This document shows positions 1-64,000 of a stretch of DNA of 64,000 bases, piece after piece (position 1 is the first letter of the stretch; each line of letters starts with the position of its first letter). The DNA is taken from NCBI RefSeq assembly GCF_900095205.1, contig NZ_LT606951.1:992001-1056000 (forward strand). The letters run 5' to 3'. The notes beneath the pieces are model-generated. The model was not told the DNA's origin. It saw nothing but the letters and a program-made list of their open reading frames with translations, and ran no database searches. Made by a program: the position numbers and the translations under genes. This DNA is from Polynucleobacter necessarius (GTDB lineage: Bacteria > Pseudomonadota > Gammaproteobacteria > Burkholderiales > Burkholderiaceae).

Positions 1-193
1 TTAGGCTGCCAAAGACAAGAATCATCACCAAGCTAACCCATTGCATCGCATCTATCTTGCGATGGCGGTAATAGACCCACAGTATTTGTCCTATGGTCGC
101 AACCATTGCAACAATGGTGGCAGTGTAAGTATCACCAAATTTGAAGGCTATAAAAAAGAGGATGATGGGGAAGAGGTCAAATAAAAATTTCAT
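1..193 (-). CDS. yciB: Septation protein A / inner membrane protein YciB (partial, N-terminal 64 residues)
   Basis: The reading frame starts at ATG 193-191 and runs off the left edge without a stop. The visible protein begins [20 protein letters not shown], followed by a second hydrophobic stretch and [15 protein letters not shown], the typical start of the IspZ/YciB family of polytopic inner membrane proteins implicated in cell-envelope synthesis and septation. The dense hydrophobic segments support membrane location. It lies 22 bp downstream of msrB on the same strand. The C-terminal two thirds are outside the window, so integrity of the whole gene cannot be judged. Confidence 0.85.
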
Positions 194-215
194 TTACGAA
201 TTATCCAGTAATTTT

Positions 216-629
216 TTATTCGAGATCTTTTATAGGGACCGCATTTTTACTAGGCTCAAAGGTCAATGAAGCGGAGTTAATGCAATAGCGAAGCCCAGTA
301 GGCATGGGACCATCGTCAAATACGTGCCCTAAATGCGCATCACAGTTGGCGCAACGCACTTCAGTGCGGATCATGCCATGACTGGTATCACGTACTTCTT
401 TTATGGATGCCGGCGCTTCGGGGGCGTTATAACTGGGCCACCCGCAACCCGCATCAAATTTGGTTTCCGATAAAAAGAGGGGGGTTTCGCAACAAATGCA
501 TTTGTAACTACCTCGATCCCAGTGATCCCAGTACTTGCCAGTAAATGGACGTTCAGTAGCAGCTTCGCGTGTAACGCGGTACTCAACATCACTGAGTAGT
601 TGCCTATATTCTTGGTCAGTTTTTTTCAT
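216..629 (-). CDS. msrB: Peptide methionine (R)-S-oxide reductase MsrB
   Basis: MsrB reduces methionine-R-sulfoxide in proteins using thioredoxin. The 137-residue product has the full family length. Two zinc-binding CxxC pairs are visible (CICC near residue 44 and CANC near residue 93), a GCGWPSY motif near 62, and the catalytic cysteine in [11 protein letters not shown] near 116, so it is the cysteine rather than selenocysteine form. It is intact, between yciB and the broken selO. Retention of oxidative protein repair here contrasts with loss of the redox chaperone Hsp33 elsewhere in the window. Confidence 0.95.
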
Positions 630-666
630 AAATGTTCTAAGAGGATGATTTGCTTTTTACGAAGAG

Positions 667-2130
667 TTACGATGAACAGCTAACCTCTACCGAGGGAAAA
701 TTATCAGGCGGTGAAGTTGCATAAGATTCGTACTCACTCTGCTCGGCATATGGCTTACTTAATATATTGAGAAGTTTTTCTACCTCAGAAAAATCTTTAT
801 TCTGCGCCTTTTCAATAGCAATTTGCGCTAAATGATTTCGTAAAACATATTTTGGATTCACTAGATTCATCATTTCTTGACGCTGCAAACCAACAATCGA
901 TTCATTTCTTAAGCGGGCAATGTAATCACTAAACCATCGTTCAATTTCTTCTCGATTGATAAAATCATCCTTCAAGGATGATTTGTGAAGGGTGCATCGT
1001 CATTTCGACCTTACCAAGATTTCGAAAGAATTTCGTAAAATCAACCCTAGACTCATGCATCATCTGCAAAAGCCTTTCGATCAGAGCGACATCACCTTCA
1101 TGGGATACAAAAAGCCCAACTTTTTTCTAAATAAATCTTGCCAGGTTTGCGCATAAATGACCGGAAACTCTTCTAGAACCTCGCGCAAAAGGTTTTGCGC
1201 TGCCTCCCCAGATTGAAGCTCTACCAATGGAATCATTGCACTAGCAAGACACGCCATATTCCAATGCATGATCTGCGGTTGTCGATGATAGGCGTATCTG
1301 CCACCCCGATCACTATGATTGCAAATGTGATCGATTTGAAATTGATCCAAAAATCCATAAGGGCCGTAATCCATTGTCAAGCCAAGCACGCTAATGTTGT
1401 CGCTATTAAGTACTCCATGACAGAAACTGACCGCTTGCCATTGTGCAACTAACTTTGCATTGCGCTCACATATAGCCTTGAATAAAACCAAATAGGGATT
1501 GTCAACATCAAGACAATCGGGATAGTGCTGTTGCATCAGAGAATCAGCAAGCTCTTTTAGGCGTTCAATATTTTGCAAGGAGGCAAAATGCTCGAAGTGG
1601 CCAACCCGAATAAAGCTTGGGGCTAGGCGAGCACAAACTGCAGCAGTCTCCATGGTCTCTCTTCTGACTGGTAAATCAGAACCAACTATCGATAACGCCC
1701 TAGTGGTTGGAATACCCAGTGCATACATTGCCTCGCTACAGAGAAATTCTCTAATAGAGGATCGGAGTACAGCACGGCCATCACCCATGCGTGAAAATTG
1801 AGTTTTACCCGCCCCTTTAAGCTGCAATTCCTGTCCAGCAATATCACCTAACAATATGGCGCGACCGTCACCAAGCTGTCCAGCCCAAACACCAAATTGA
1901 TGACCGCTGTAGACAGTGGCGATTGGATTTGAGAATTGATGCTTTGATGTGCTTAACTCATTACCCGCCAAAACAGGTAACCAAGACTGATCAAGAGGAA
2001 AATTATTCTCATTAAGTGGAATATTGACTAATTTGGCGGCCGAAGGTGAAAAGGCAACCCAGCAAGGATCAGGTATTGAGGTCGGCAAGGTGGATTGGCA
2101 AACATCGTCGCCAGTTAAAGTAAAAGCCAT
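667..2130 (-). pseudogene. selO: SelO/YdiU protein AMPylase, frameshifted
   Basis: The SelO family consists of pseudokinase-fold enzymes that transfer AMP to proteins. The first 340 codons (from ATG 2130) read cleanly, with YSGHQFGVWAGQLGDGRA, GKTQFSRMGDGRAVLRSS and LGLTMDYGPYGFLD all present. Near 1115 the frame shifts by one base: the continuation GLFVSHEGDVALIERL lies in another frame. A second shift near 980 moves to the third frame, where the C-terminal part (NPKYVLRNHLAQ) ends in the characteristic VSCSS. The three segments together give the normal ~480-residue length, so the gene was whole until recently. Broken by two small indels with little further loss. Confidence 0.9.
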
Positions 2131-2185: not shown

Positions 2186-2668
2186 ATGAATATAACAAGT
2201 ACAAATTAATCCACAGACTCAACTAGCCAATCTAGGCGAGGAATTAAATGTTCCTTTTTTAAAGCTTCTTGGGGTTCGTTGTTTAAGTACCGGGATGGGC
2301 AAAGGTGAGATTTTGCTAGCCTTGAAACTAGAGCACAACAATACATGGGAAGTGGCACATGGTGGTGTTCTCTCTTAACACTGATGGATGTAGCGATGGC
2401 TGTGGCAGCTCGCTCTGGTGATCCAGGTGACCGCAGTGTTGTGACGATTGAAATGAAAAATAATTTTATGCAAGCCGCTACTGGCGTACTCCGGGTGAAG
2501 ACTGATACAGTTCGGAGAACAACCACAATGGCATTTTGTGAGGCTAAATTATATAACGATCAAGGTGAAATTTGCTGTATGGCAACCGGGACTTTTAAAT
2601 ACCTAAAGCGTCTAGCAACTCGCAATGCAGATGGTGAGCGGGTAATCAACGACGATAGCCGACTTTAA
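2186..2668 (+). pseudogene. PaaI-like hotdog-fold thioesterase, frameshifted
   Basis: The segment VAHGGVL followed by LMDVAMAVAAR is the HGG active-site region of PaaI/YbgC-type acyl-CoA thioesterases. It is split by a one-base frameshift around 2370-2380. A second defect sits at the very start: ATG 2186 runs into a stop after seven codons, while the conserved N-terminal part (LGEELNVPFLKLLG) is in another frame. The C-terminal part reads cleanly to TAA at 2668. Substrate cannot be told. Divergent from selO with about 55 bp between them. Confidence 0.8.
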
Positions 2669-4560: not shown

Positions 4561-5643
4561 ATGAGCAGAAAAATTCAGGGAAGAACCCTTTTTGTAAAGA
4601 AAAAACTCCGAATGGAAAATTCAAACCCTGGCTTGCCTTTTTTATAGCCACACTTGGATTGCTTTATGGTGGTATTTTCATATTGCCAGTAGTTCCCGAT
4701 CGCCCCAATGTTGAGGGTGGGTCTGCTTATAGGGCAAAAATTAACCCTCACTCAAGTCTTTCGAGCATTGCAGAGCAACTTCGCCAACAAGGCATATCAG
4801 TGAATTCGGTGACTATACAAATTGGAACTAGAACTTTATTTGTGGCCTCAAAACTGAAGCCGGGAACTTATTTATTTCCAAATGGCGCCAGCCTTGGAAA
4901 AGTACTGCTACAGATCGCCCGTGGCGATCGCGTTAAAGAAAGCATAGCCATTATCCCAGGCATGACAATTTGGTAGCTAAAGGCGTTTATAGACTCACAC
5001 CCAGCCCTTATCCATCAAACCAAGGGGGGATGGAGCAATAGAGAGCTAATTACCCTTCTAAAATTGAGCTATCCCAGCGATGAAGGAATTTTTCTTCCAG
5101 ATACCTATGTATTCGATCCTGATGAGTTGGATCTAGATATTTATCGGAGAGCTGCCTCGGGTATAAAAAAACAGCTCTCGCAAAGCTGGGAACAAAGACA
5201 GCAGGACTTGCCTCTTAAAATGGCCTCTACGAGCTCTTAATTTTGGCATCCATAGTTGAAAAGAAACAGGGAAACTGAGCGACAGAGAAATGCTCTCTGC
5301 AGTCTTTATCAACCGACTTAATAAGGGAATGCCACTGCAAACCGATCCCACCGTTATTTATGGAATAGAGCCCAAATTTGATGGGAATCTAAGAAAAGCA
5401 GATTTACGTAAAGACACTGCCTACAATACCTATATGCATAAAGGATTGCCACCCACCCCAATAGCAATGCCCAGCAAGGAGTCCATCCTAGCTGCAGCAC
5501 ATCCCGCCAAGAGCAAGGCCCTATTCTTCGTAGCTAAAGGGGATGGAAATAGTCACTTTTCTGAAACTCTAAAAGAGCATGAATCTGCCGTAGATCGATA
5601 TCAACGTAAGATTGCGCCTAACAAAGCCCTCCAATTAAATTGA
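4561..5643 (+). pseudogene. mltG: Endolytic peptidoglycan transglycosylase MltG (YceG), multiply frameshifted
   Basis: MltG is an inner-membrane lytic transglycosylase that cleaves nascent glycan strands. Recognisable segments occur in order but in changing frames: a membrane anchor around 4640-4690, the LysM-like part (4690-4975), the middle part with LKLSYPSDEGIFLPDTYVF (around 5060-5130), and the C-terminal part with MPLQTDPTVIYG (around 5330) and LPPTPIAMP. Breaks lie near 4635, 4975, 5220 and 5260. The catalytic glutamate block should read ASIVEKETGKLSDRE; here a one-base deletion falls directly after VEK (about 5258). Non-functional. It heads the conserved mltG-tmk-holB-tatD order. Confidence 0.9.
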
Positions 5644-8954: not shown

Positions 8955-9086
8955 TAACCTTAATTGCGTATAATCATTATTATGTCAAATAAGATATATT
9001 TGTTATCTAACTACCAATTCCCCAACTATGTTTAACCCTTTTTAAAAATACTGACCTACCTAGACCTAGCATTACTACATTGTTTA

Positions 9087-9439
9087 GTGAGATCAATGCA
9101 GATAATGGGGAGTAGTCAAATCTGGGGCATAGTGGTAATCGCATGCCTTATGTTGGCTGTTCACGCCGCTACGGTCTTGGGGATTGCTGGTGCATTCCAT
9201 GCTATTGACAGAGTGATGACAAGACGACGAATTGTGGGTGCAAGTTTTTTATCCTATTTCATTGCAATCATGTTGGTCATCGCTTTCCATTTTTGCGAAA
9301 TCAATGGCGCATTTTGCCCATCATTATTTCCTTTTCAGGCATTTTTGCAGTTTCTATGTCCGGCGCAGCTCTGTACACCATGATGGGTGCCTTACTGGGT
9401 CACTCCAGCAATGGCTCAAACTCAAGCACTGGGAATTAA
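9087..9439 (+). pseudogene. Two-TM ion channel-like protein lacking its pore region
   Basis: The first part (from GTG 9087; ATG 9096 or 9105 also possible) holds two hydrophobic helices, one with AVHAATVLGIAGAFHAIDR and one ending AIMLVIAFHFCEIN. The frame then breaks near 9300, and the last helix continues in another frame as WRILPIIISFSGIFAVSMSG with a Ser/Gly/Asn-rich tail to TAA at 9439. In two-TM potassium-channel-like proteins of this type the pore helix and TxGYG filter lie between these two segments. Here they are absent, so a deletion plus frameshift is inferred. The family assignment is from pattern memory. Confidence 0.6.
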
Positions 9440-9445
9440 GGGGCT

Positions 9446-10443
9446 CTAATTTAGCGCTGATGGGAAGAATGGGACTTTTTTGCTTATAAAAACGAGTTCT
9501 AGAACCCTTCCACTTGATTCCTGTGAGCGAATTCGCCTAGGAAGCCACTCAAGATCTTTTGCAAGCCATAAGTCTACCTTGGGCGCTTAAAGGGTCATTT
9601 TCACGTTGCATTTAAAGCGTAATGACGATTTACTGTCCTCCCAAGACTTGGTATGTCCTCGGATACTGTCTCGCCATAACTCTTAAATTGCCATATTTCT
9701 AGCGTGTTGTAGTCAACAACGGGTATGCCGTGAATGCTTCCAGCCTCATCTATTTTGCTATCCCCATTTATAACAATGACGCCAGTTGAAATATGAGACT
9801 AAGGCGATCCTGGGTTCCCTTGGAGTGGAAGTCGGGCTTCTCAGAAAAGAACATCTGCCCCTCCCCCTTTTTTCATTGCGATTAAATCTAGAATAGCGAG
9901 GCGGCTCTTAGCACCTCTTTGTGACCAATAAATAGTCGGAGCAATTCCATAAGCATCTACCGATTCCCCTAGATTCAAAAACAAATGGGCCAATAAGTGC
10001 GTATGGAATATTCACATAAAGCCGATAGCTATTACCATCATTAATCCAATCTATTTCGCCAGTCTGATACTTTTGGCCATCCACATAAGAATCGTAATAA
10101 ATGATCCCAGACTCGGGTAATTTAAATGCAACACCAGTTTGATTATTTAGGCCGCCCTGCTGACCAACTTCATCAGCAATCGGACCTAGACTTTCTCCTG
10201 CGAATTGTTTTTCTTTAATAATCCTTTTCTTATTTGTTTTTGCAACCTGAATTTTTTGGGAGGCTCCAACTTCAGCTCAGTCTTGATGATGAGGTCTTCA
10301 GGAATGGGTTGAGAAATACCAAATGAAAGTAGCGGTATGCCCAAAAACAATATGAAATGGCCTACAACTGAAATCGCTAAGGCAATCAGAATAATTCGTA
10401 GGGATTTTAATCTAGGCGTATTTGGAAAAATACGCTGCCACAA
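9446..10443 (-). pseudogene. DUF3108 domain protein with N-terminal membrane anchor, heavily frameshifted
   Basis: Reading from ATG 10443, a membrane anchor (RIILIALAISVVGHFILFLG) is followed by a charged Pro/Lys stretch, ending in a premature stop at 10186. In other frames follow the parts typical of DUF3108 envelope proteins: SGIIYYDSYVDGQKY (about 10080), GIAPTIYWSQRGA (about 9940), GTQDRLSLIFQLASLL (about 9810), DYNTLEIWQF (about 9710) and VDLWLAKDLEWLPRRIRSQE (about 9560). At least five frame changes are needed. The function of DUF3108 is not known. One of the most degraded genes of the window; it converges on the channel relic. Confidence 0.75.
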
Positions 10444-11855: not shown

Positions 11856-12457
11856 ATGAATACAAAATATGCACAAATTGCGATGATTGTTGCAACCATT
11901 TTTGCTGGGTCTACAGCTGTTTATGCCCAAGCACTGGCAGCAGGTGCAGCTAAGCCAGTTGTTATTGACGCAGCTGTCACAGACAATCGCTATTAGTTTT
12001 ATGAAGGTGAAGTGGTTAAGGTAGATAAAAAGACTCGCACCATTGCCTTTAAGAATAAAGATGGAGAATCCAAATTCGTTGCTGGGCCGGAAATTACTAA
12101 TTTTGCGCAGATCAAAAAAGGCGATCGTGTAAATGTGAATTATGAGTTAGCGGTAGCTATTGATTTGATCAAAACCAAAAGTGATGGCATTCGCTCTAAG
12201 GTAGAAACTAATACCGTTACAAAATCAAAAGCCGATGAGAAGCTTGCTGAAAAAATCTCAAACCAAACGACTATCATCGCAGATATTGTTGAGGTGAACC
12301 GTGAGAAAAAACTAGTTTCAGTAAAGGACCAAGTGGAAAAATCACGACAGTGACTGTAAAAAGCCCCGCTTTGCTTGCTGACGTTAATGTAGGCGAACAA
12401 GTCAAGATCATTTACTACAACGCTATGGCTGCTTCCATTACCACGCCGAAGAAGTAA
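11856..12457 (+). pseudogene. Exported protein of unknown function, nonsense codon and frameshift
   Basis: ATG 11856, preceded by AAGGA, begins a clear signal peptide (ATIFAGSTAVYAQA). After 46 codons an in-frame TAG at 11995 interrupts the frame. Reading continues in the same frame with KVDKKTRTIAFKNKDGESK and KKGDRVNVNYELAVAIDLI, then a one-base shift near 12335 moves to the frame with TTVTVKSPALLADVNVGEQV, ending at 12457. The two similar halves (a strand-rich block ending in GDRVNVNYE and one ending in GEQVKIIYYN) suggest a duplicated small beta-barrel domain. I do not recognise a named family. Confidence 0.7.
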
Positions 12458-12465
12458 CTTATATC

Positions 12466-12828: not shown

Positions 12829-12830
12829 GT

Positions 12831-14091
12831 TTATGGAACTTTTGAGACCAAGATCGATGCGCTAGATCAGCCAAATGCAAATGAGTTACTTATCGCTACA
12901 GGCATAGCCATATCAATAGATTCAAGCGGCAAATAATTTAAATCGCATTCCGGATCCGGAATTTCTAAATATGCAGTGCCAGGCGCAATGTTATTTTCTA
13001 ATGCTTGAATTGTGATAACCAACTCTAACGCACCAGCTGCGCCAAGAGTATGGCCATGAATAGCCTCAGTCGAACTTATTAAAGTACTTTAGCAGCATCT
13101 AACCCAAAGGCCGTCTTAATTTGAATTTGTCTCTGCTACATCACCTACACCCGTGGCAGTTCCATGCGCATTAATGTAAACAACTTGATTGAGGTTAATT
13201 CTTGCCTCTGCCATGCAGGCTAACATTGCTTTAGTCTGACCTAATGAATCAGGCCTGGTGATATGAAGGGCATCCGTAGTGGCGCCATAACCAATAGTTT
13301 TACCAAGAATATTGGCGCCTCTTTTTAGATGCGCTTTCTAAGGACTCCAAGACTAAGGCTGCAGTATCCTCCCCCAAAACAAAACCAGTCCTGTTTTTAG
13401 AAAAAGGCTTGCAGGAGCCTGCAATATTATCTTCATCAGGGGTGGCCAAGGTTCTTAGAGTCTCCCACGCTTTAATTGGGCCAGCATTAAAAAGAGATTC
13501 TGTTCCGCCGCCAGCAATTGCCCTATCGCAAAAACCATATTTAATACTTCTAAAAGCCTCTCCAATGGCATGGGCTTGATGAGGCGCATGCCGTTGAGTA
13601 GGTCCCCCATCGATGGGCCTTTAAAGCCCGTTTGAATAGCCAGTAATCCAGCAGAACCATTGGCCATAACACCAATAATAGTAAAGGGACGAGCACGTTG
13701 CTTACCATTTAGAAAAATTTCTTGATAAGCACTATCGAGGGTATTAGAGCCACCAAAACCAGTTCCCCAGAAAATACCGCTTCGGTCTAAACCTAGATCG
13801 TTTAATTCATTTAATCCTGATTGCTGCAAAGCTTCATTTGCTGCCAACCATGACAAGTGAGCAGTTCGATCAAACATACTCAGCGAATTTGCATCTAAAT
13901 TAAATGAAAGATCTTCTTTGATGAGTGATGCACATGGAAGATCTACTGGTATCGCGGTTGATTTGGTAAAAGTAGTAATACCTGAAGAGCAATCTACCGC
14001 CTTTTGAAACTGTGCTTGAGTACCAACACCAAGCCCTGAAACTGCGCCAAAGGCCTGTAATAACAACCCTACGTTCGCCACCTGTAATCAA
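12831..14091 (-). pseudogene. Beta-ketoacyl-ACP synthase (FabF-like), multiply broken
   Basis: FabF-type ketosynthases condense acyl chains on an acyl carrier protein. The pieces occur in order across changing frames: GAVSGLGVGTQAQF (about 14050), MFDRTAHLSWLAANEAL, IFWGTGFGGSNTLD, the active-site block TYSTACASSS (about 13600, out of frame with the preceding part), NAHGTATGVGD (about 13160, first catalytic His) and IHGHTLGAAGALE (about 13050, second His). Breaks lie near 14052, 13605, 13440, 13330 and 13110-13080. An in-frame TGA near 12865 replaces a glycine of the C-terminal SFAFGG motif. It overlaps the stop of the ACP gene, so it was part of one lipid operon. Confidence 0.85.
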
Positions 14092-14324
14092 TTAATAGGC
14101 TTTGCAGCATCAAGCAAAGCAGCAACCTCACCCAGGGTATCTACTTTTGCATCTTCATTTGGAATGCGAACCTTAAAGTGATCCTCGAGATCAAAAATCA
14201 GCTCAATTTTTCCCGGCGAGTCAATGCCAAGACTTTCTAAAGTGGTCTCCGGACCTAGTTCATCAATATTCTTGTCGAACTTTTGTGAAACCAGCTCAAT
14301 AAGTGTATTAAGGGTATTAGACAT
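14088..14324 (-). CDS. Acyl carrier protein of the decayed lipid cluster
   Basis: A 78-residue acyl carrier protein. The phosphopantetheine serine lies in LESLGIDSPGKIELIFDLED at about residue 37, and helix III ends with LGEVAALLDA. The residue after the serine is proline; nearly all carrier proteins have leucine there (DSL). One CTG-to-CCG change would explain this, so the protein may already be damaged although the frame is open. This is not the housekeeping acpP, which sits with fabD/fabG/fabF in this group. It is flanked by a broken membrane protein gene and a broken ketosynthase, both overlapping it. Confidence 0.8.
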   Translation of the reverse strand: MSNTLNTLIELVSQKFDKNIDELGPETTLESLGIDSPGKIELIFDLEDHFKVRIPNEDAKVDTLGEVAALLDAAKPIN

Positions 14325-14769
14325 GATGTTTTCTCTTAAGTTCCTGCAAAAGCTGGTTATCCCTTTGTAACAATATTAAATATCGAGGCTCTGAAACAAG
14401 TAACAACAATTTAAATTTGAAGCGCTCTCTTTGTACAAGCTCAATCAAAATGATTGCAACGCAACACTACCAAAAAATAGATTTAGCAAATAACGCTCTA
14501 TGTTATTGGTAGAGAAAATAAATTCACCGAATGGACGTACAAAGAAGTAATTAGCAAAAATACTAGTAAAAATAATAAAATAGTTGCCGGACGATAGCCA
14601 AAAAAGTTGCAACTATAAAATAAAATTTATAGGAATACGCACCATAAAAATCACTACCCAAATTGAACATCATGAAAGTTATCACTACAAATACAAATGA
14701 TGTGCACGACCATGCAAACACATTCAACGTGCTATGCGATGACCAATTTTTGGCGTTTCTAATAAGCAT
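14317..14769 (-). pseudogene. Membrane protein relic resembling a DUF4118-type sensor region
   Basis: From ATG 14769 two hydrophobic segments are read (FVFVVITFMMFNLG and YSYKFYFIVATFL), then the frame breaks near 14585. A second frame gives TSIFANYFFVRPFGEFIFST, which resembles the third and fourth helices of KdpD-like DUF4118 membrane domains. After a shift near 14445 the last part is FKLLLLVSEPRYLILLQRDN and a basic end, with stop at 14317 overlapping the ACP start by 8 bp. The family call is a pattern-based guess; overlap with the carrier-protein gene shows it was the first gene of that operon. Confidence 0.5.
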
Positions 14770-14798
14770 GCCTGCTGTCTCTAATGGGTCTACAATTG

Positions 14799-15574
14799 AT
14801 GGTCATGGATGACCTTTTACAGAGTAATGATATCAAACCGATGGTCGTGCTTTTTCATGGCCTTTCATCACATCGCCACTTGAATTTAATTTTTTAAGCT
14901 CTCAACTTACATCTGCAGGATATCGGGTTAGCGCCCCAAGCATTGAGGGTTATAGCTTTGGGGGTAATGCTAGTAACTGGAAGTACTGGGTCAATGAAGC
15001 GGTAAATCACGTCAGAGCACTCCAGGAGACTGAGTCCTTGCCAATAAGCCTCGGCGGAATATCTCTTGGCTCAACGCTGGCTTTGGCTGTTGCAGCAGAA
15101 CTCTAGGTGTGTTAGCCCTTTCCACTACCCTCAAATACAATGGTTGGGCCGCCCCATGGTATCATACCCCCTCATACCTTTAGGAATGGCGCTAGGGCTT
15201 GGGGATCATTTCAAGCATAAGGAAAAGACCCTTTTGGCATTAAAAATCACCAAATCAGAGCATACATCAAAAGAGTGCTCTCCAGTCAAGATACTTCTGC
15301 TGTTAGAGGGCTATATACGTCCCTCCGGCATATGCATGAGGACAATAAGTTGTGCAAGCACGTCATCGAAAATCTATCATCTGTGAGCTCGTCGATCTTG
15401 AGCTATCACATGATTACTGTAGATAATGAGCGAGAAACAGTTACTGCAGAAACCCAAAGTTTTTTAGACTTAATATATGAGAAAATCCAGCCTACACCCG
15501 CAGAAGAAAAAGTCCTAGCTCCAGAATTGCAACGATTTTTACGTAACCTGAATCGAATTGACGATAGCATCTAA
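14799..15574 (+). pseudogene. Alpha/beta-hydrolase (lysophospholipase/esterase-like), broken
   Basis: MVVLFHGLSS (about 14845) is the oxyanion strand of an alpha/beta-hydrolase. Then, in other frames, come LTSAGYRVSAPSIEGYSFGG and the nucleophile elbow GGISLGSTLALAVAAEL (about 15060). A shift near 15100 leads to GVLALSTTLKYNGWAAPWYH. From about 15275 the last 100 codons are open, with YHMITVDNERETVTAETQSF carrying the catalytic histidine. SSSIL joins SYHMITVDN directly, although a ~30-residue loop carrying the catalytic aspartate normally separates them, so an internal deletion is inferred. Divergent from the ACP/ketosynthase operon and followed by the desaturase relic. Confidence 0.75.
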
Positions 15575-15619
15575 AGCAATACGGGCATTTCTCCTTAATG
15601 GGTATTTGGGACCAATGAA

Positions 15620-16341
15620 TTGAATCCAATTCTCCTTTACATCATCTCACCGCTTATATTGCTGGCGCTCGGCTTTTGGGAGAGAATGCACCCCCTTTAT
15701 CAATACCAAGCTGATGGATCTTGGTGCTTGAGACTATTCATCTATGCAGAACTTGGGTTGATTACCACCGCTTTAGTAGGTTTTATTATTGCCCCTATAT
15801 CAATGAATCAAGCGCCCCATCAAAGTACCGGAACTCCCTACCCAACTGGATTAGTGGGCTTGCTGCTTATTTTTTAATCACTTTTTGTCTACTGATGGCA
15901 TCGCTATCGTCACCATAGTAATTTTGTCTGGAAAGTATTTCACCAAGTTCATCACAGCACCCATAAATTACAAGCAGTTACTGCCTTGTATGCCCACCCT
16001 TCAGACTTCGGGGCCAACTTGCTGATAATCAATTTAGTTTGCTATGGACTATTGGGCTCAATATTGAATCTGCAGCTTGGGCTACTTTATGAGTATCCGT
16101 GTTTGAGTATTGGGAACACACCAACATGCGCACGCCTCACTGGCTAGGCTACTTAATAGTTCGCTCAGAAATGCATCGAATACATCACGAACGCGATCGT
16201 CATAGCAATAACTATGGGCTACCAGTATGGGACTTAATTTTTGGCACCTATGAAAATTCAGATCGCGAAGTGGAGTGTGGTTTTGTCCCTGAAAAAGAGA
16301 ATCAAATAAGCGACATGCTCGCCTGTAAGCGGGTTGAATAA
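15620..16341 (+). pseudogene. Sterol desaturase / fatty acid hydroxylase family protein, frameshifted
   Basis: Members are membrane di-iron hydroxylases. The first 75 codons from about ATG 15620 hold two membrane helices. After a break near 15850, histidine boxes appear in another frame: HRYRHHSNFVWKVFHQVHHS (about 15895-15955), then TALYAHPSDFGANLL. After another break near 16050 the last part FEYWEHTNMRTPHWLGYL and MHRIHHERDRHSNNYG reads to TAA at 16341. All three His boxes of the family can be found, but not in one frame. Together with the ketosynthase, ACP and hydrolase it suggests a lost pathway for a modified lipid. Confidence 0.82.
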
Positions 16342-16371: not shown

Positions 16372-16377
16372 TTGTCT

Positions 16378-36929: not shown

Positions 36930-37034
36930 GGGGGCAAATCCTCCAAAGTAAACAAACCTCAAAAGGTCTTCATTAGTGAAAATTCAATCAATAAACACTA
37001 AATACAGACTTTATTCATGAGTAGGATACTACCT

Positions 37035-47692: not shown

Positions 47693-47776
47693 ATTAATCC
47701 CCTTATCTAAGCCCAAAAAGTGGGCTAAATTAATAATTCAACCATCATTTTTAATACATTAGTCAAGTTTCGGCTA

Positions 47777-49120
47777 TTAGGTCATGCCCTTGGGAGTCTT
47801 AGGACCGACACTCGAATAATTTCCACCTGCAAGATAACGTTTAGAGGCTTGCTGGGCGGTAAAACCCGCACCAGACCATCAATTTCGGGAGCATCACCAA
47901 TAGTTCTGCCAATTCCACCGGATTCATCCACACGATCAATGATGACCTGAATTCGTTTGCCTATTTTTTTGGCAAGCCTTTCGACAGAGATGGCCTCTGC
48001 TTTTACCATGAACTTTGCACGACGTTCTTCACGAATTTGATCCGGAACTGGGTTGTCTAATAAATTGGCAGTAGCGCCCTCAACTGGCGAATATGCAAAA
48101 CATCCCACACGGTCAATTTGAGCCTCATCTAAAAAGTTAAGGAGATACTCAAACTCCTCTTCAGTCTCGCCAGGAAAACCGGCAATAAAGGTGCTGCGAA
48201 TTACGAGGTTTAGATAGGCTTGACGCTAAACCCCAAAATGCGCTCAACATTTTTCTCGCCAATCGCTGGGCGTTTCATGCGCTTGAGCACATCAGGATGA
48301 GCGTGTTGCAATGGAATATCGAGGTAAGGTAAAATACCATAACCATGCTCGGAGAATTCGGCCATTAAAAGCAAAACATCATCTACATGAGGATAGAGAT
48401 AAGCATAATGTAATCTCACCCAAACCTGATGTTCACGTGCAATTTAATTTAAGGCATTTACCAAATCAAACATTTTAGTTTTTACTGGTTTTCCATCCCA
48501 AAAGCCTGTGCGATATTGAATATCAACGCCATAAGCACTGGTATCTTGAGAGACCACCAACAGCTCTTTGACGCCCGACTCAAATAAACGCTTTGCCTCA
48601 AGCAACACTTCGCCTATGGGCCAAGAAACTAAATCTCCGCGCAAACTAGGAATAATGCAAAAAGTACAGCGATGATTACAGCCTTCACTGATTTTCAAAT
48701 AGGCGTAATGTTTCGGAGTGAGCTTTACACCTGTCGGCGGAACTAAATCTGTGAAAGGATCATGGGGTTTTGGTAAATGCAAATGGATTGCCTGCATTAC
48801 CTCGTCGGTAGCATGCGGGCCTGTAACCGCAAGTACTTTAGGGTGAATGCTAGGAGATCACTACCATCCGCATTTTTTCTGACACCGAGGCAGCCCGTTA
48901 CGATTACTTTACCGTTTTCAGCTAAGGCTTCACCAATCGCTGACAGACTCTCCTCTACAGCGGAATCTATAAAACCGCAGGTATTCACGACCACTAGATC
49001 AGCGCCGGAATAATCCTTGGCAGTTTCATACCCTTCGGCGCTCAATTGCGTGAGGATTAACTCAGAATCTACCAATACCTTAGGGCATCCTAAGGAGACA
49101 AAACCAATTTTTCCAGCCAC
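47777..49120 (-). pseudogene. rimO: Ribosomal protein S12 methylthiotransferase RimO, frameshifted
   Basis: RimO is a radical-SAM enzyme adding a methylthio group to Asp of ribosomal protein S12. From ATG 49120 the N-terminal cluster motif [18 protein letters not shown] is in frame; breaks near 48860 and 48800 precede the radical-SAM cysteines in [18 protein letters not shown] (about 48690). Further breaks near 48430, 48215 and 48115 separate the TIM barrel pieces ([20 protein letters not shown]), and the TRAM domain part breaks near 47845. Stop at 47777. Loss removes a non-essential ribosome modification. Confidence 0.9.
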
Positions 49121-49122: not shown

Positions 49123-49683
49123 TTATTCTTTTTCGGCTTTATTGGGCGGAGAAGTAAATGGAAAGTTTCCAAAAATATTTTGTGAACCCTGCATTTGCTC
49201 TTGCATCTTAATGAAGAGATCTTTGCTTTGCTCCATGTAGTTACCCATTAATCCCTGCATCAATGGGTTTTGCAGATTCATCATTTGAGACCAGGCCTCA
49301 GGGGTACTTCCAGCACTGAGACCTTTGGTTTGATCGCCAAGTTTATTGTGTATATCCACAAAAGATTGCATAGTCTTTTCTAGATAATTTCCCATCAAAC
49401 CTCGCATGGAATTTCCATAAAAGCGAATGATTTGGGACAGCATTTGTGATGAGAATACTGGCGCTCCGCCAGCCTCTTCTTCAAGAATTATTTGTAGCAA
49501 TATATTGCGTGTTAAATCTTCTTTAGTTTTAGCATCAACAACTTTGAATACCTCATTTGCCATCACCAAGCTTTTGATATCTGACAAGGTGACGTAGGCA
49601 CTTGTCTGGGTATCGTAAAGACGACGGTTGGGGTACTTCTTGATGAGCCGATCTTCGCCAGCTCGTTTTGTGCGGGTTACCAT
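49123..49683 (-). CDS. phaR: Polyhydroxyalkanoate synthesis repressor PhaR
   Basis: PhaR senses PHB granules and represses phasin genes and its own gene. 186 residues. The DNA-binding N-terminal part with [20 protein letters not shown] (residues about 13-32) and the PHB-accumulation regulatory domain are whole; two copies of [16 protein letters not shown] near 95 and 145 flank the amphipathic C-terminal part. It is completely open and starts after AAGGAAA. It is the only intact gene of the PHB group here, which is unexpected. Confidence 0.92.
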
Positions 49684-49802: not shown

Positions 49803-50532
49803 AACCAGTATGAATACCGCCGTTTAGCGAAAAGTCTGCGCCAGTTGCATAGCCGCCATCTTCTGAGGCAATCCAACAGCAAATAGAGGCAATCTCATCA
49901 GGAGTTCCTAAACGCTTCACAGGAACCCCGGAAACAATCTTCTCTAAAACATCTTCGCGAATAGCCTTCACCATATCTGTACCGATATAACCAGGAGAAA
50001 CTGTATTCACAGTAACGCCTTTAGTTGCCACCTCTTGTGCTAAAGCCATAGTAAAACCATGTAAACCCGCCTTAGCAGTTGAATAGTTGGCTTGACCAAA
50101 TTGACCTTTTTGGCCATTTACAGAAGAGATGTTGATGATGCGACCCCAGTTGTTATCAACCATTCCGTCAATAACTTGCTTCGTTACGTTAAATAAAGAA
50201 TTCAGGTTGGTATCAATCACCGCTTTCCATGCATCTGGTGTCATTTTGCGGAAAACGCTATCACGCGTAATACCGGCATTGTTAACCAACACATCAACGC
50301 GACCTACTTCAGCTTTCACCTTCTCAAAAGCGGCAACTGCGCTATCCCAGTCAGAAACGTTACCTTCTGAGGCGATGAAATCATATCCAAGAGCCTTTTG
50401 CTCTGCGATCCAACGATCTTTGCGAGGTGAATTAGGACCGCAGCCAGCAATGACCTTAAAGCCATCTTTAGCAAGACGTTAACAAATAGCGGTACCAATA
50501 CCACCAGTTACATATGCGACTTTTTGAGACAT
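49801..50532 (-). pseudogene. phaB: Acetoacetyl-CoA reductase PhaB, nonsense codon
   Basis: NADPH-dependent SDR enzyme, second step of PHB synthesis. ATG 50532 (after GGGGAAA) reads MSQKVAYVTGGIGTAIC and then TAA at about 50479 where a CAA (Gln) is expected before RLAKDGF. The glycine-rich cofactor loop is also shorter than the usual TGGMGGIGTAI, suggesting a 9-base in-frame loss. Downstream the whole frame is open: LVNNAGITRDSVF, INISSVNGQKGQFGQANYS with catalytic Ser, Tyr and Lys, and ends in GGIHTG. An internal start (GTG 50319) would lack the cofactor fold. Confidence 0.9.
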
Positions 50533-50564: not shown

Positions 50565-52196
50565 TTATTTGAGTTCAGGTGTTGCTTTTTCTTTTACATA
50601 CACACCCGGCGCTGCTTCCATTTTTTATACTTGGCATTACCAAAAGTTTTGCAAGCAGGTTTTTGCTTGCCAGCATATTGCTCAAGCCATTTCGTATAGT
50701 CGGGCCACCAACTTCCAGGAATCTGTTTTGCGCCTTCTAACCACTCATGTGCAGTTGGAGCAATCTTGTTATTTTCAAAGTAGTAGCGTTTATTTTTTAC
50801 TGGCGGATTAATCACGCCTGCAATATGACCAGATGCTCCTAGAACAAAACGATTCTTGCCCTTCAAGATATGGGTTGACTCGTAGGCAGATTGCCATGAA
50901 ACAATATGATCTTCTTGTGAAGCGTAAAGATAAGCGGGACATTTAATTTTGCCAAGATCAATCTTCTCACCACATATTGTGACGTTACCTGGCTTAACCA
51001 AATCATTTTGCAAATAGGTATGACGCAAGTACCAACAGTACATGGCACCAGGAAGATTGGTAGAGTCACCGTTCCAATACAGCAAGTCAAATGGAGGCGG
51101 TGAATTGCCCTTAAGGTAATTCTCAACTACATAATTCCACACCAAATCATTTGGCCGCAAGAATGAGAAGGTATTACCCAAACCCAATCCCGACATCATT
51201 CCGTACTTGCCACCTTTACCGCCAATGGTATTCTCTCGCATCTCAACCATGCCTTCATCAATAAAGACATCGAGAATGCCGGTATTAGTGAAGTCCAACA
51301 AGGTTGTAAAGAGAGTCAAACTAGCAGCAGGATGCTCATCACGGACCGCCAGCACAGCTAAGGCAGAAGTTGTTAAGGTGCCGCCAACACAGAATCCCAA
51401 GATGTTAATTTGCTTAGTGTTACCAATCTCTTTGACAACATCAATCGCCTTGATCACGCCTTTACCGACGTAATCATCCCAGCTCACCTCAGCCATAGAT
51501 GCGTCTGGATTTTTCCAAGACACTAAAAATAGTGTGGCCTTGACTGACCATGTGGCGCACAACCGAGTTATCAGGCTGTAAATCTAATATGTAATATTTG
51601 TTGATGCAAGGTGGCGCCATTAAGTAAGGACACTCAAACACCTGTTCTGTTAAGGGCGTGTATTGAATTAATTCAAACAAGTCATTACGAAATACCACAT
51701 GACCTTCAGTGGTGGCGATATTTTTGCCAACCTCAAAAGCAGATTCATCTGTTTAAGATACCTTGCCTTTTTTCATGTCCCCCAAAAGGTTCACAACCCC
51801 CTTTTGAATAGATTGTCCCTAAGTGCTAATAATGCTTTCTAAAACCTCTGGGTTGGTCGCAATAAAGTTTGATGGTGACAGGGCATCAATCGTCTGCTCA
51901 GTTGTAAACAGAATTTTCTGTTTCGACTTTTCATCCGTTTCAACTGCCTTAGCCAAAGCCATTAAATGCTTTGAATTGAGCAGATAGGTCGCAGCGATTA
52001 CCTTGCTCCATGAAGGGTGCCATGCCTTTCCAGCAAAACGACGACCCTTAACTTCAATCGCCTCAGGATTGGTGGCAATATGCGCCAACTCCGTGAAATA
52101 TTCTTTTTGAATTTCGGATAAGCGCTCTGGTGGAATTAGTGCCATATGGTGCGGCGCCAAAGATGGCGTTGCACCAGTATTCATGCCTGCAAACAT
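50565..52196 (-). pseudogene. phaC: Class I poly(3-hydroxyalkanoate) polymerase PhaC, broken
   Basis: PHB synthase. From ATG 52196 the first 125 codons are open, then TAG (about 51820) and TAA (about 51754) interrupt the same frame. A missing base in a T-run near 51535 breaks VSQGHT from [18 protein letters not shown]. The next 300 codons are open, carrying the lipase-box-like nucleophile in ILGFCVGGTLTTSA, Asp in YASQEDHIVSWQSAYE, and His in LGASGHIAGVINPP. Another shift near 50620 displaces the last residues (MEAAPGVYVKEKATPELK) to the stop at 50565. Four independent lesions. Confidence 0.93.
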
Positions 52197-52311: not shown

Positions 52312-53095
52312 TTATTTTGAAATCCAGATGGCAGACGCAAATCTTCCTGTTTCGCCATCACGACGATAAGAGAAAAAACGCGCAGCATCTTTAACCGTGC
52401 AAAACTCACCATCAAAAATAGCTTTTACACCGCAAGCCTCAAGACGAGCCTCAGCAAGCAGATAGATATCAGCTAAATATTTCCCTTTTTTATTGGGAAT
52501 TGATTGAAAAGCATTCTCAGGCAGTGACATGCCAGCATCTTCAAAGGCGCTCACTACATCCTGACCTACATCAAACTTATCAGGGCCGATTGTCGGCCCT
52601 AACCAAGCCATCACATTACTTGCTACATCACCTGAAATATTGAGTAACTCGGCAACAGTGTTTTCCAGTATTCTTGCGCAAAGACCCCTCCAGCCGGCAT
52701 GAGCCACACCTACAACGGTTCCGCATGAATTGGTGAACAACACAGGCAAACAATCCGCAGTCATCACAACCAATACCCCCCGGCTGATTGGTCACTGAGG
52801 CATCTGCCGTAATCACTTCATCACGAATTGATTGACGACTCTGAGGAGTGCTGACTTCAGTGCTGTGGATTTGCTTTAACCAAAGCGGTTCAGTAGGCAG
52901 AGTACTGGCAAATATTGCTCTATTGGTTTGAACATTCTCAATCGAATCACCCACGTGATCACCCAGATTCAGAGAGTCAAAAGGTGCATTACTCACCCCA
53001 CCCGATCGGGTACTTATCAAGGTGTGAACTGAGGAGTGTGCTGGCCACTTGGCAAGAAAAAACTCACGATTGTGATTCTTTCTCAATAGAAGCAA
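52312..53095 (-). pseudogene. pgeF: Purine nucleoside phosphorylase/laccase-domain protein (YfiH/PgeF), frameshifted
   Basis: YfiH-family proteins bind copper or zinc and act on purine nucleosides; PgeF also edits peptidoglycan precursors. The first part holds THISTRSGG-like LISTRSGGVSNAPFDSLNL and LKQIHSTEV. A one-base change within a G6 run near 52778 shifts the frame just before MTADCLPVLF; the second part (VGVAHAGWRGLCARILENTV, FFSYRRDGETGRFAS) is open to 52312. Its start lies within the end of rluD and is uncertain (no ATG; TTG 53095 or a later codon). One lesion only, so this is the weakest pseudogene call in the window. Confidence 0.8.
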
Positions 53096-59420: not shown

Positions 59421-59897
59421 TTATGAACTTAATCCAGCAATAACCTCTGGAGGGGTCTGAACCAACTCAATCAAGACGCCTTCGCCACTAGTCGGAAACC
59501 CATCATTCCCTTTAGGGTGAACAAAAGTAATGTTATAACCTGCCGCCCCCTTACGTATGCCCCCCTGGAGCAAAGCGTAAGCCATTAGCGGAGAGCCATT
59601 CAACAGCTTTCGGCAAATCATCCACCCATAAACCAATGTGATTTAGAGGCGTTTAATGAACAGCCGGCTTCTTTTCAATATCAAAAGGTTGCATGAGAGA
59701 TCAACCTCAATCTCATGCGCACCAGAACCAATTGCACAAATATCCTCATTTACGTTTTCACGCTCAGAAACAAATGTGCTTTTGTATTCAAACCCCAGCA
59801 TATCGACCCATAACTTCTTGAGTCGATCCTTGTTCTCGCCACCAATGGCGATTTGCTGAATACCTAAAATTTTGAATGGCTTAGAGCTTATAGTCAT
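59421..59897 (-). pseudogene. Methylmalonyl-CoA epimerase-like VOC protein, broken
   Basis: Vicinal-oxygen-chelate fold. From ATG 59897 the N-terminal part ILGIQQIAIGGENKDRLKKL with metal residues (AHEIEVDL) is open; a frame change near 59697 leads to MQPFDIEKKPAVH, then TAA where CAA is expected (about 59655), [19 protein letters not shown], and a G-run indel near 59570 before [18 protein letters not shown]. Ends at 59421. Its position directly behind the propionyl-CoA carboxylase genes supports the epimerase call. Confidence 0.82.
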
Positions 59898-59905: not shown

Positions 59906-61946
59906 TTATTCGAAGCGAATGATCAATTGATCAACAGCCAAGCTGTCGCCCTCTTGGGCACAGATTTCAGCAACTACACCGTCTTTTGCATTGCAGACAG
60001 AGTATTCTCCATTTTCATTGCTTCAATCGATGCTAATTTCTGACCGGTAGTAACCGCCTAGCCCACCTTAACAGCTATCTTTGTGAGAAGACCAGGCATA
60101 GGAGACATTACCAATTTAGAAGTATCAGGCGGAAGCTTGACGGGCATGCGGCGTTGTAGTTCTGCTCCTAATGGGCTCAAAACCATGCACTCGTAATGCA
60201 CACCGTCCAGAACTAAAACATACCTCACCCCCGCGGCGCTCAACTTGCGCCGTAACTTTATACGTACCATTGATAGTGGCATTCAAGCAAATTTGACCTG
60301 GTCTCCAATTGCTAACGATGTCATATCGACTAACGCCATCAGCCTCATCAATGTAGACAGAGTAAATGCCATCCTTTAATTCAACGCGAATAGGTACCTC
60401 GTACGGATCGTTCATTGAGCCCGTTTTTTTGCCAGTGACTATAACAAATTTCTTGTCAATAATCATTTTATGGCCAGCCAATTGACCATCAATCATTTGG
60501 ATATGTTGGAGATAGCGATAACGCATAAATGCGGCTAAGGCTGCCAAACGTTTAGGATCAGCAGGCTGTACAGAATCCTTTTTAAAGCCTTCTGGGTACT
60601 CTTCAGCAATAAAGCCTGTCGTAAAGTCACCATTTACAAATCTTGGATGCTGAAGTAAAGCTGCCTGAAATGGGATGTTGGAATGAATTCCACGAATAAC
60701 AAAGTCATTCAACGCAGCGCGCATCTTCTCTATAGCCTCTGCACGATCCTTGCCATGCACGATCAATTTTGCAATCATCGAGTCATAGAACATCGGAATT
60801 TCTCCACCCTCGTAGACGCCAGTATCCACACGTACGCCATTCACTGACTCTGGTGGGCGGTATTTAACAAGACGGCCTGTTGAAGGTAAGAAGTTACGGA
60901 ATGGGTCATCCACATTAATACGGCACTCCATTGACCATCCATCCAATTTCACATCTTCCTGTTTGAATGCTAGCTTCTCGCCTGCAGCCACACGAATCAT
61001 TTGTTCAACTAAATCAAGACCGGTAATGCTTTCGGTGACTGGATGCTCAACCTGCAATCGGGTATTCATCTCGAGGAAGTAGAACGACTTATCTTTACCC
61101 ACTACAAACTCAACCGTGCCAGCGGATTGATAGTTCACCGCTTTAGCCAAGGTAACTGCTTGCTCACCCATTGCCTTACGAGTGGCAGGATCAATAAATG
61201 GCGAAGGCGCCTCTTCAATCACCTTTTGATGGCGACGTTGAATAGAGCAATCACGCTCATTGAGATAAACCACATTGCCATGAGAGTCACCTAGAACCTG
61301 AATTTCAATATGGCGCGGCCCTTCAACAAACTTTTCAATAAAAATACGATCATCACCAAAGCTATTCATTGCTTCAGTTTTACAAGCTGCAAAACCTTCA
61401 GCTGCTTCTTTATCATTAAATGCAACCCGCAAGCCCTTACCGCCACCACCTGCAGAAGCTTTAATCATGACCGGGTAACCGATTCCCTGAGCAATCTTCA
61501 CCGCCTCTTCGTTGGTATCAATTGCCTCGTTGTAACCCGGAATGGTATTAACCTTTGCCTCTAATGCAAGCTTCTTAGAGGCAATCTTGTCACCCATTGC
61601 TGCAATAGATTGGTGCTTAGGTCCAATGAAGACGATCCCCTCTTCTTCACAACGTTTGGCAAATTGCTCGTTTTCAGACAAGAAACCATAACCAGGATGG
61701 ACTGCTTCAGCGCCAGTGTCTTTACATGCTTGAATAATCCGATCCATTACCAAATAGGACTCGCGGGAAGGCGTAGGTCCAATGCACACAGCCTCATCAG
61801 CAAGCTGAACATGGGCGCGCCTCTTTATCCGCCTCAGAATAAACGGCAACAGTCTTGATGCCCATCTTCTTGGCAGTGGACATGACATGGCAAGCAATCT
61901 CACCGCGGTTAGCAATCAAAATTTTCTTAAACATTTTCGTAGTCAT
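59906..61946 (-). pseudogene. pccA: Propionyl-CoA carboxylase alpha (biotin) subunit, frameshifted
   Basis: Biotin carboxylase plus biotin carrier. ATG 61946 reads [18 protein letters not shown] until an extra C in a C-run near 61815; the next 560 codons are open with GPKHQSIAAMGDKIASKKLA, ASAGGGGKGLRVAF, EKFVEGPRHIEIQVLGD and FLEMNTRLQVEHPVTE. A further shift near 60230 leads to MSPMPGLLTKIAVKVG, a TAG at about 60058, then the biotin-attachment motif IEAMKMENT near 60020 and another shift near 59998. The end RFE is at 59906. All domains are traceable, so it was lost recently. Confidence 0.92.
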
Positions 61947-61961
61947 AATTTGTCAGCGCCT

Positions 61962-63496
61962 TTACAGAGGAATATTGCCGTGTTTACGCGCAGGATTTTT
62001 TAAATCTTTGTCTTTCAGTATTGCTAGTGAACGAGCAATACATTTGCGTGTTTCGTGCGGAAGAATGACATCATCTATATAGCCACGACGACCAGCCACA
62101 AAAGGATTCGCAAACTTGGCTTTGTATTCGGCTTCACGTGCAGTAATTTTTTCTGGATCTGATTTCTCTTCACGGAAAATAATTTCAACAGCACCCTTTG
62201 GGACCCATCACAGCAATCTCTGCTGAAGGCCATGCAAAGTTCACATCGCCACGTAAATGCTTGGAAGCCATCACGTCATAAGCACCACCGTACGCTTTGC
62301 GGGTGATGAGGGTTACCTTCGGAACAGTGCAATCAGCGTAAGCCGTAGAGTAATTTAGCGCCATGCTTAATGATGCCGCCGTATTCTTGAGCGGTACCAG
62401 GCATAAATCCTGGGACGTCAACCGAAGTCACTACCGGAATATTAAAGGCATCACAGAAGCGTACAAAGCGTGCTGCTTTAATTGATGCTTTGATATCCAA
62501 ACAACCAGCTAGTACTAAAGGTTGATTAGCAACAATACCAATAGAGCGACCTTCCATGCGGGCAAAGCCGATCACAATATTTTTAGCATAATCAGGTTGC
62601 AATTCAAAGAACTCACCGTCATCGACAATCTTTTCAATCAACTCTTTCATATCATAAGGTTGATTTGGATTAGACGGAACTAATGTATCCAGAGAGAAAT
62701 CAGGCTCTTCAGTACGATTAGCCCCTTTGATCAAAGGTGGTTTTTCGCGATTAGAAGGGGGCAAGTAGTTAAAGAAGCGACGCAACATCATGATTGCATC
62801 TACATCGTTATCAAAAGCTAAGTCACATACGCCTGATACCGTTGAGTGAGTTACTGCACCACCCAATTCTTCAGCTGTAACATCTTCGTGCGTAACAGTC
62901 TTCACTACTTCAGGGCCCGTTACAAACATGTACGAACTATCTTTGACCATGAAGATAAAATCCGTCAATGCAGGTGAATACACTGCGCCACCTGCTGAAG
63001 GCCCCATAATCAATGAGATCTGAGGAATGACACCGGACGCAGTCACATTCCGCTGGAAAATCTCTGCATAGCCACCCAGCGATGCAACACCTTCCTGAAT
63101 ACGTGCACCACCAGAGTCATTTAAGCCAATGACAGGAGCACCCACTTTGAGCGCTTGATCCATGATCTTGCAAATCTTTTCAGTATGCGCTTCTGATAAG
63201 GATCCGCCTAAGACGGTGAAGTCTTATGAAAACACAAATACTAAGCGGCCATTAATCATTCCATAACCGGTTCACAACACCGTCGCCAGGAACTATTTGA
63301 TCGCCCATGCCAAAGTCATGGCAACGATGTTCCACGAACATATCCCACTCTTCGAATGTGCCACATCGAGCAAGAGCTCAATACGCTCACGAGCTGTTAA
63401 TTTGCCCTTAGCATGCTGAGCTTGAATGCGTTTTTGCCCGCCACCCAATCGGGCGAGCTCACGCTTCGCTTCCAGTTGTTGAATGATTTCCTTCAT
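61962..63496 (-). pseudogene. pccB: Propionyl-CoA carboxylase beta (carboxyltransferase) subunit, broken
   Basis: Starts with AAGGAGTAGGAA before ATG 63496: [20 protein letters not shown] and [15 protein letters not shown]. Breaks follow near 63350, an extra A near 63277, and TAA (about 63222) in place of CAA in LVFVFSQDF. From 63163 270 codons are open: [40 protein letters not shown] and [20 protein letters not shown]. Shifts near 62355 and 62205 displace [19 protein letters not shown] and the C-terminal part (ILPHETRKCIARSLAIL), which ends at 61962. 15 bp before pccA. Confidence 0.93.
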
Positions 63497-63506
63497 TTCC
63501 TACTCC

Positions 63507-64000
63507 TTAGAAAAATTCATGCCCCATGGACTCCAGTAAGCGCCTTGCGGCTACTGAAGCTGCCATAGTCCCTTGGTTTACCTGTGCCACTAAACTTGGT
63601 AGAAGCGCTTGTACCACTTCGTTGCTACGAAATGCGTTCTTTAATATCCAGCATCGATGCGGTCCCACATCCATGAGCCAGCTTGTTGTTGACGACGAGC
63701 ATCAAATTTCCCATTTGCCTTTTGTAATTTATCGAAATGAGAAACTTTTTCCCAAAGCTCAGGAACGCCTTTACCCTCTAATGCACTTAAAATCATCACT
63801 TGGGGATGCCAAAATTCTTTATCGTGAGAGGCGTGATCAGGATTGCCCTGAAAACCCAACAGACGCAGAGAGCTAGTAATAAAAAGTTGCGCGCGCATAG
63901 CAACATCAGGATCAATATCTACTTTATTAATCACAATCAGATCCGCAATCTCCATCACACCCTTTTTGATAGCCTGCAGATCATCACCCGCATTTGGCAG
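63507..64000 (-). pseudogene. meaB: Methylmalonyl-CoA mutase-associated GTPase MeaB (ArgK), partial and frameshifted
   Basis: G3E-family GTPase that protects methylmalonyl-CoA mutase. The C-terminal half enters from the right edge: MEIADLIVINKVDID (NKVD is the guanine-recognition motif) and VMILSALEGKGVPELWEKV. A frame change near 63643 separates it from the final NEVVQALLPSLVAQVNQGTM, which ends at TAA 63507. Only one lesion is seen in the visible part; the rest lies outside. It is followed by pccB 10 bp on. Confidence 0.85.

Follow-up and report, generated by a model that had tools for sequence, protein, structure and literature searches.

Recent inactivation of many genes in a Polynucleobacter genome, with parallel losses in other small genomes

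The window analysed has 64,000 nucleotides (bases 992001-1056000) and comes from a Polynucleobacter genome, its genus being assigned from named loci, that is deposited as one contig of 1,934,415 bases with a listed completeness of 99.92. An original prediction, made from the letters of the window, had claimed that about one gene in three is broken by small indels or nonsense codons. A third of the genes of the window are really wrecked by small indels and stop codons. These lesions are real, lineage-specific and recent, and largely the same genes are hit, by different lesions, in three other small genomes. We consider it highly probable that nearly half of the genes of this Polynucleobacter lineage recently became dispensable, most likely through confinement to a host cell.

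Broken and intact genes in the window and in other blocks of the genome

The nearest relative by PurL among the 151 genomes searched was G002 (2,172,647 bases). Its alignment with the window is collinear apart from gaps in one island, and the nucleotide identity is 83%. We took 80 kb around the same locus from G002 and from four other relatives (G145, G096, G038 and G091), and each gene was compared one by one. The test set was represented by the 52 G002 genes that had matching full-length open reading frames (ORFs) in at least two of the four other relatives and that lay wholly inside the shared span. A gene counted as intact if a single reading frame covered at least 85% of it. Relatives with intact genes are labelled here as free-living-type, a label that describes their genes. 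The deposited genome is apparently in reverse orientation with respect to G002, G145, G096, G038 and G091, the purL strand being opposite and the positions of the G002 blocks mirrored.

Gene by gene against G002, 35 of these genes were intact and 17 broken in the window, whereas the identical script gave 52 intact and 0 broken genes in G145, G038 and G091, and 51 intact and 1 broken in G096 (17/52 in the window against 1/208 gene-genome cells in the four relatives, p = 2e-12); since the relatives helped to choose the 52 genes, this control is biased towards intact genes. Two further controls were outside the choice of genes. For the first, 17 genes were examined in 16 of the 80 loci fetched, and the 15 named loci other than that of strain PPGSP2 had 17 of 17 genes intact, with one locus at 16. 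For the second, G109 had 23 of its 25 in-range genes intact and 2 absent.

For four further relics, at 12837-16338, G002 has full ORFs whereas G145, G096, G038 and G091 have no DNA match, so that their polarity rests on one genome, and a further relic, meaB, is broken but is cut by the right edge of the window. The total is 17+4+1 = 22 relics, exactly the number originally traced, while the about 38 intact genes claimed were counted as 35 plus one ORF at 12466 that is common to G002. All but one of the 17 relics could be followed along 98% or more of the G002 protein (the remaining one, at 77%, has a deletion of 118 bp), in agreement with their description as almost full length, and the very long genes purL, mfd, lon and acnB, listed as intact, proved to be so, with their domains confirmed.

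The proportion of one in three is correct for the window but too low for the genome. Of the 206 genes judged in six further blocks of 40 kb each (240 kb), 108 were intact, 90 broken and 8 partial, that is, 98/206 not intact. The gene set of the blocks consisted of G002 ORFs alone, from which 11 edge genes and the rows with weak hits or no hit were dropped, and G096, whose stretches aligned only partly to the six blocks, was left out of the block gene calls. The window is better kept than the six blocks pooled, and blocks B1 and B4 are kept better than the window. Both of the sulphate assimilation genes examined, cysN and cysH, were broken in a sampled block. Inactivation by point mutation, as originally proposed, stands, but it is accompanied by some deletions of larger size (118 bp at 9302 in the window and 284 bp in one block gene). 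Differences in length from G002 on the scale of blocks were also seen, with their direction unpolarised.

The excess of change in the broken genes is about what neutral evolution would give over 4-5% of the branch leading from the split with G002, which bears out the claim that inactivation is recent, and the 67 nonsense codons found in 99 kb of relics imply about 1.6-2.1% of neutral substitution. The density of lesions was fairly even across window and blocks (2.3-4.2 per kb, with a dispersion of 1.5, over 107 genes), which suits one approximate onset, and we infer a single onset of the decay.

Reality of the lesions and parallel loss in other small genomes

We considered as clean any indel with 12 gap-free columns on each side and an identity of at least 70% over the two sides taken together, a filter that retained 44 of the 60 frame-changing indels of the window and 143 of the 177 of the blocks. 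Over 16.7 kb, the relics of the window hold 44 clean indels that change the frame, together with 11 nonsense codons; its intact genes hold 5 and 0 over 39.6 kb. The 107 broken genes of window and blocks together (99.5 kb) had 187 such indels and 56 nonsense codons, and for the 143 intact genes (136 kb) the figures were 12 and 1; the class of intact genes is partly defined by the absence of lesions, yet the split between intact and broken genes recurs in other lineages. A single C-to-T or G-to-A change accounts for at least 35 of the 56 nonsense codons. A count of lesions by gene, which gave 69 for the window, found two or more in 14 of the 17 window relics and in 78 of the 107 broken genes overall, one of which had none by this script.

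A restriction of the lesions to homopolymers, which had been named as a sign of an error-prone assembly, was not found, as runs of at least 5 bases hold only 9-10 of the 117 clean one-base indels of the broken genes. The rate of one-base indels climbs with run length from 1 to 111 per 1000 runs, as slippage predicts, the run-length rows covering the one-base indels other than 26 insertions that do not adjoin the same base. We also counted nonsynonymous (N) and synonymous (S) changes on each branch, considering only codons in which the outgroups agreed and dropping those with disagreeing outgroups or gaps. For the broken genes, the counts were 62N/162S on this branch and 28N/195S on that of G002 (p = 9e-5); for the 35 intact window genes, they were 91/402 and 78/439 (odds ratio 1.27, p = 0.15). 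A significant excess is present in the broken genes only.

The distribution of the lesions, their homopolymer context and the branch-specific N/S exclude a general base-calling error, which had already been judged unlikely. The broader possibility that errors of assembly or base calling make intact genes look broken draws on the deposition of a single-contig genome without accompanying reads, and on a 2024 paper which states, at least in its title, that 'Many purported pseudogenes in bacterial genomes are bona fide genes' (PMC11017572); we judge it very improbable, given the contrast of 187 + 56 lesions with 12 + 1, the scarcity of one-base indels in long runs, the excess of nonsynonymous change in the broken genes, the listed completeness, and a broken set that matches that of the other small genomes. 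Scarcely credible is the alternative that programmed frameshifting, recoding or read-through of stops keeps the genes working: the bktB and phaB relics, with a protein identity of 95-96% and few lesions, would be its best cases, but most relics have at least two lesions, the orthologues are open in the relatives, and constraint is relaxed.

In three other small genomes, part of the 52 genes is likewise broken or absent, namely 17 in G106 (1.70 Mb), 20 in G103 (1.66 Mb) and 17 in G017 (1.55 Mb), and 16 of the 17 window relics are also lost in at least one of them. The four small genomes share ten lost genes, where 0.7 (equal weights) or 1.9 (length weights) would be expected, and an overlap of ten was reached in 0 of 10,000 draws, which treat the four genomes as independent and ignore the kinship of the other three. 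In 131 comparisons of window lesions with those of G106, G103 and G017, none coincided. In the tree, the window and G002 are grouped with a support of 100, apart from G106, G103 and G017, with branches of 0.191 and 0.189 for window and G002, respectively. Both the lack of coinciding lesions and this placement indicate that the losses of the window are independent of those of the three genomes.

Repair genes, mobile elements and indel spectrum

In a profile search, neither MutS1 nor MutL was over the cut-off in any of 10 genomes (0/10 for each), the source genome and free-living types included. A MutS_V domain was found in 26 of 186 genomes of the genus (24 of the 144 of good quality), and not in the source genome; it was found (e.g. 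L182-L184) only where purL is far from that of the window (61-73% identity where listed), and G104 and G110, equally distant by purL, are without it. According to the passages cited here of Hoetzinger et al. 2017 (PMC5644125), mutS and mutL are missing from all 20 PnecC genomes. The missing MutSL, together with the similarity to named Polynucleobacter loci, suggests a placement of the source genome in the PnecC subcluster.

A gene for a UmuC-like translesion polymerase, open in G002, is present in the source genome as pieces in several frames with stops, is fragmentary in G103 and G017, and had no match in G106. According to a review (PMC4285135), Boscaro et al. 2013 proposed for the symbiotic strain that recombination was illegitimate, that mismatch repair genes were lost and that the translesion polymerase disappeared early. 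Three transposase families (PF01609, PF00665 and PF02371), the only ones tested, gave 0 matches in the whole source genome, in line with the original remark that no mobile element is visible; insertion sequences (ISs) are thus unlikely as the inactivating agent. A plasmid search gave no match. As free-living-type relatives without MutSL keep their genes, loss of repair would set the kind and pace of the lesions and not the reason for the loss, which would be lost selection; in this sense, the missing mismatch repair may have contributed to the decay.

The clean frame-changing indels of the 107 relics included 68 one-base and 44 two-base insertions, and 49 one-base and 10 two-base deletions. 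Two-base insertions therefore outnumber two-base deletions (44 vs 10, p = 3e-6), while the bases deleted exceed those inserted (555 vs 261). Among the 44 two-base insertions, 30 are tandem duplications, of the form XY to XYXY and several of them without a prior repeat; 7.3 would be expected by chance, and the maximum in 300 randomisations was 17. G103 had 16 two-base insertions and 1 deletion, with 12 of the 16 in tandem against 2.6 expected (maximum 8), and G106 and G017 had 2 and 0 two-base insertions, too few to judge.

Intergenic DNA, itself under selection, was used as a control. Nine non-independent Polynucleobacter pairs gave 19 one-base and 5 two-base indels, one further pair 1 and 0, a second intergenic control 12 and 0, and the Cupriavidus, Ralstonia and Paraburkholderia pairs amounted to only 412 bp. 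The pooled result is weak (p = 0.04), and with controls of this small size the spectrum may be either a trait of the group or tied to host restriction. End joining of staggered breaks by Ku was rejected as the source of the duplications, as Ku had no match in 10 of 10 genomes, and IS footprints with a two-base target duplication are unlikely, as the inserted dinucleotides are of many kinds.

For comparison, Mycobacterium smegmatis without MutSL had 141 insertions and 66 deletions in mutation accumulation (PMC4938668), and thus shares with the relics an excess of insertions, of about 2:1 there, together with a net loss of bases. It is, unlike the present case, a laboratory spectrum of a free-living bacterium, with 79% of the small indels in repeats, and the passages cited here of that paper make no mention of the two-base tandem duplications that are so marked in the relics. 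In a Vibrio deleted for mutS, 86-94% of the events were single-base, as given in part of PMC5854121, against 117 of 187 clean frame-changing indels here. The excess of two-base insertions with tandem duplication is possibly new. We put forward only tentatively, as a doubtful proposal, that host-restricted lineages of a group lacking mismatch repair decay by insertion-biased two-base tandem duplication, possibly rarer in the intergenic DNA of other members.

Lifestyle, window features and relation to known symbionts

The reading that we prefer would run as follows. A lineage would become confined to a host cell, by analogy a ciliate such as Euplotes, where genes for polyhydroxyalkanoate (PHA) storage, propionyl-CoA metabolism, sulphate assimilation and accessory stress and envelope functions would become unneeded. 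Such genes would gather nonsense changes as well as indels of 1-2 bp, which have so far reached about 3 per kb together and would not be purged, while genes still needed would stay clean. With no tested IS family present and MutSL missing, inactivation would proceed by small indels and base changes. The original prediction of a young obligate symbiont lineage stands as to the pattern, which matches that of Polynucleobacter symbionts in the published passages cited here, whereas obligate symbiosis itself is something that we infer.

Several observations weigh against this reading, beside the limits already given for the overlap draws and for the lesion comparisons. The intact genes are not entirely clean, as 5 clean frame-changing indels were counted in those of the window and 7 in those of the blocks, beside a single nonsense codon, and their rise in N/S is non-significant. 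In the reverse check, in which ORFs of the window genome were searched in G002, 24 were broken and 1 partial out of 232; most of these are presumably fragments of relics or spurious ORFs. In the comparison of the 52 genes, one gene of G096 was called broken, and among the named loci lon was called broken in L011, a P. campilacus locus. One weak match to MutL, below the cut-off, was present in G038. PPGSP2 (L017, LT606947.1), filed as P. necessarius, had 17 of 17 locus genes intact and hence failed as a symbiont comparator, so that the species name P. necessarius alone does not mean decay; its locus is 90% identical to that of strain 80A-SIGWE (L010). In a pccA-type search of 186 genomes of the genus, a few near-complete genomes had only lower, paralogue-like scores among the matches listed, and it was from these that G106, G103 and G017 were chosen for comparison. 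G109, the fourth candidate, has only such scores, yet most of its in-range genes are intact; one lost gene is therefore not diagnostic, and loss of pccA failed as a marker of symbionts. Moreover, there is no AT shift (GC3 of 0.393, against 0.380 in G002). An AT shift is seen in older symbionts and is not required early.

The lack of an AT shift would also suit a free-living strain under relaxed selection, owing to a small population or a specialised habitat, as would a genome still of 1.93 Mb; further, the free-living strain compared with the symbiont P. necessarius STIR1 is itself described as reduced in a published passage. We regard such a strain as unlikely, because other genomes retain the genes in question (0-1 of 52 genes were broken in the four relatives, and 0-1 of 17 in the 15 named loci), and because the losses coincide with those of three genomes of 1.55-1.70 Mb and match the sulphate-assimilation trait reported, in the passages cited here, for ciliate symbionts. 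Confinement to a host cell hence remains the reading that we favour.

The relics of the window, with + and - denoting strand, begin with selO (670..2130, -), for the protein adenylyltransferase SelO/YdiU, named from its G002 orthologue, with frame-disrupting lesions against five relatives. A hotdog-fold thioesterase (2187..2665, left end approximate, +), hslO for Hsp33 (18215..19180, +) and a tesA-like GDSL esterase/thioesterase (32055..32694, left end approximate, +) were recognised by their lesions and family matches. The relic of mltG, for an endolytic transglycosylase (4566..5628, +), is broken, among the four small genomes, in the window genome only. The 118-bp deletion lies in an ion-channel-like gene (9039..9427, +). 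Two relics have no family match: a heavily degraded one of a 316-aa gene (9479..10258, -), whose G096 copy was also called broken, and one of a 200-aa gene (11856..12454, +). A relic of a YbbA-like ABC transporter ATPase (31379..32052, -) is below the cut-off of the YbbA model. The intact controls acnB (23872..26454, +), purL (27323..31354, -), lon (34500..36962, -) and mfd (42017..45556, +) have full ORFs and their domains.

An island at 12457-16372, between the relic at 11856 and a tRNA-Asp/Glu/Ala cluster, is partly common to G002, has a partial match of 67% in G106 and none in the other relatives fetched; 4 of its 5 G002-type genes are broken. These are relics of a beta-ketoacyl synthase (12837..14066, -; longest window ORF 208 of 416 aa), a DUF4118 gene (14320..14769, -; 68 of 151 aa), an alpha/beta hydrolase of the Hydrolase_4 family (14775..15571, +; match split over two frames) and a fatty acid hydroxylase (15620..16338, +; 85 of 240 aa), all with the gene present in G002. 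The beta-ketoacyl synthase relic had a partial DNA match of 67% in G106 and no match in G145, G096, G038, G091, G103 and G017.

Among the storage genes, a bktB-type thiolase (46510..47716, -) has two frame-disrupting lesions and a protein 95% identical to that of G002, a phaB-type acetoacetyl-CoA reductase (49804..50532, -) has one early nonsense codon and an in-frame deletion, and phaC, for a class I PHA synthase (50568..52196, -), named from a co-located ORF of L002, has two frame lesions and two nonsense codons. The gene of the PHB accumulation regulator, phaR (49126..49683, -), is intact in the window genome, G106, G103 and G017, in all four of which phaC, phaB and the thiolase are broken; this retention beside broken PHA genes suggests that PhaR may have a second role. 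Nearby, rimO, for the S12 methylthiotransferase (47766..49120, -), has five frame lesions and two nonsense codons, and pgeF/yfiH (52318..53062, -) has lesions against the relatives. Towards the right edge there are relics of a glyoxalase-fold, methylmalonyl-CoA-epimerase-like gene (59424..59897, -), below the equivalog cut-off, of a biotin carboxylase/carrier gene (59909..61946, -) with three frame lesions and one nonsense codon, of an mmdA/pccB-type carboxyltransferase (61965..63496, -) and of meaB (63510..64000, cut by the window edge, -), the last two with lesions against the relatives. The biotin carboxylase/carrier gene, which its neighbours suggest to be the propionyl-CoA carboxylase alpha subunit, is open over its full length in many genomes of the genus, among the matches listed.

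Sodalis glossinidius is a young symbiont with a heavy load of pseudogenes, recent and recognisable relics, and inactivation and rearrangement driven by ISs. The Serratia symbionts of aphids also have recent, still recognisable relics, but there the process is IS-driven, according to part of the review (PMC4285135), while three transposase families had no match here. The closest likeness is to STIR1 and the other Euplotes symbionts, for which many pseudogenes, no mobile elements, loss of the translesion polymerase and of sulphate assimilation, and independent origins are reported (Boscaro 2013, 2017, through papers that cite them); the loss of sulphate assimilation in symbiotic P. necessarius is given in a review. 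The source genome is, however, larger than that of STIR1 (1.93 Mb against 1.56 Mb), and endosymbionts are placed at 1.7-1.8 Mb in a review. Published figures for P. necessarius, in the excerpts cited, are about 18% or 269 pseudogenes, in contrast to 115 of the 258 genes judged in the samples here, with methods that differ. A genome larger and more pseudogenised than those of the known symbionts suits an earlier stage.

Decay of this type is thus already known in the genus, and the source genome is another early-stage eroding Polynucleobacter. Its early stage is seen in the fact that nearly all the dead genes of the window are of full length and that a collinear sister keeps them. With full-length relics, an intact sister and three parallel losers, the order, the rate and the mutational mechanism of gene loss are directly readable. 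The two-base duplication signature, if it holds, would be a concrete clue to the mechanism of decay and would point to the loss of a specific polymerase or repair function on host restriction. Finally, since the relatives are also without MutSL, the group offers a natural experiment on the way in which a repair defect older than symbiosis affects the later decay.

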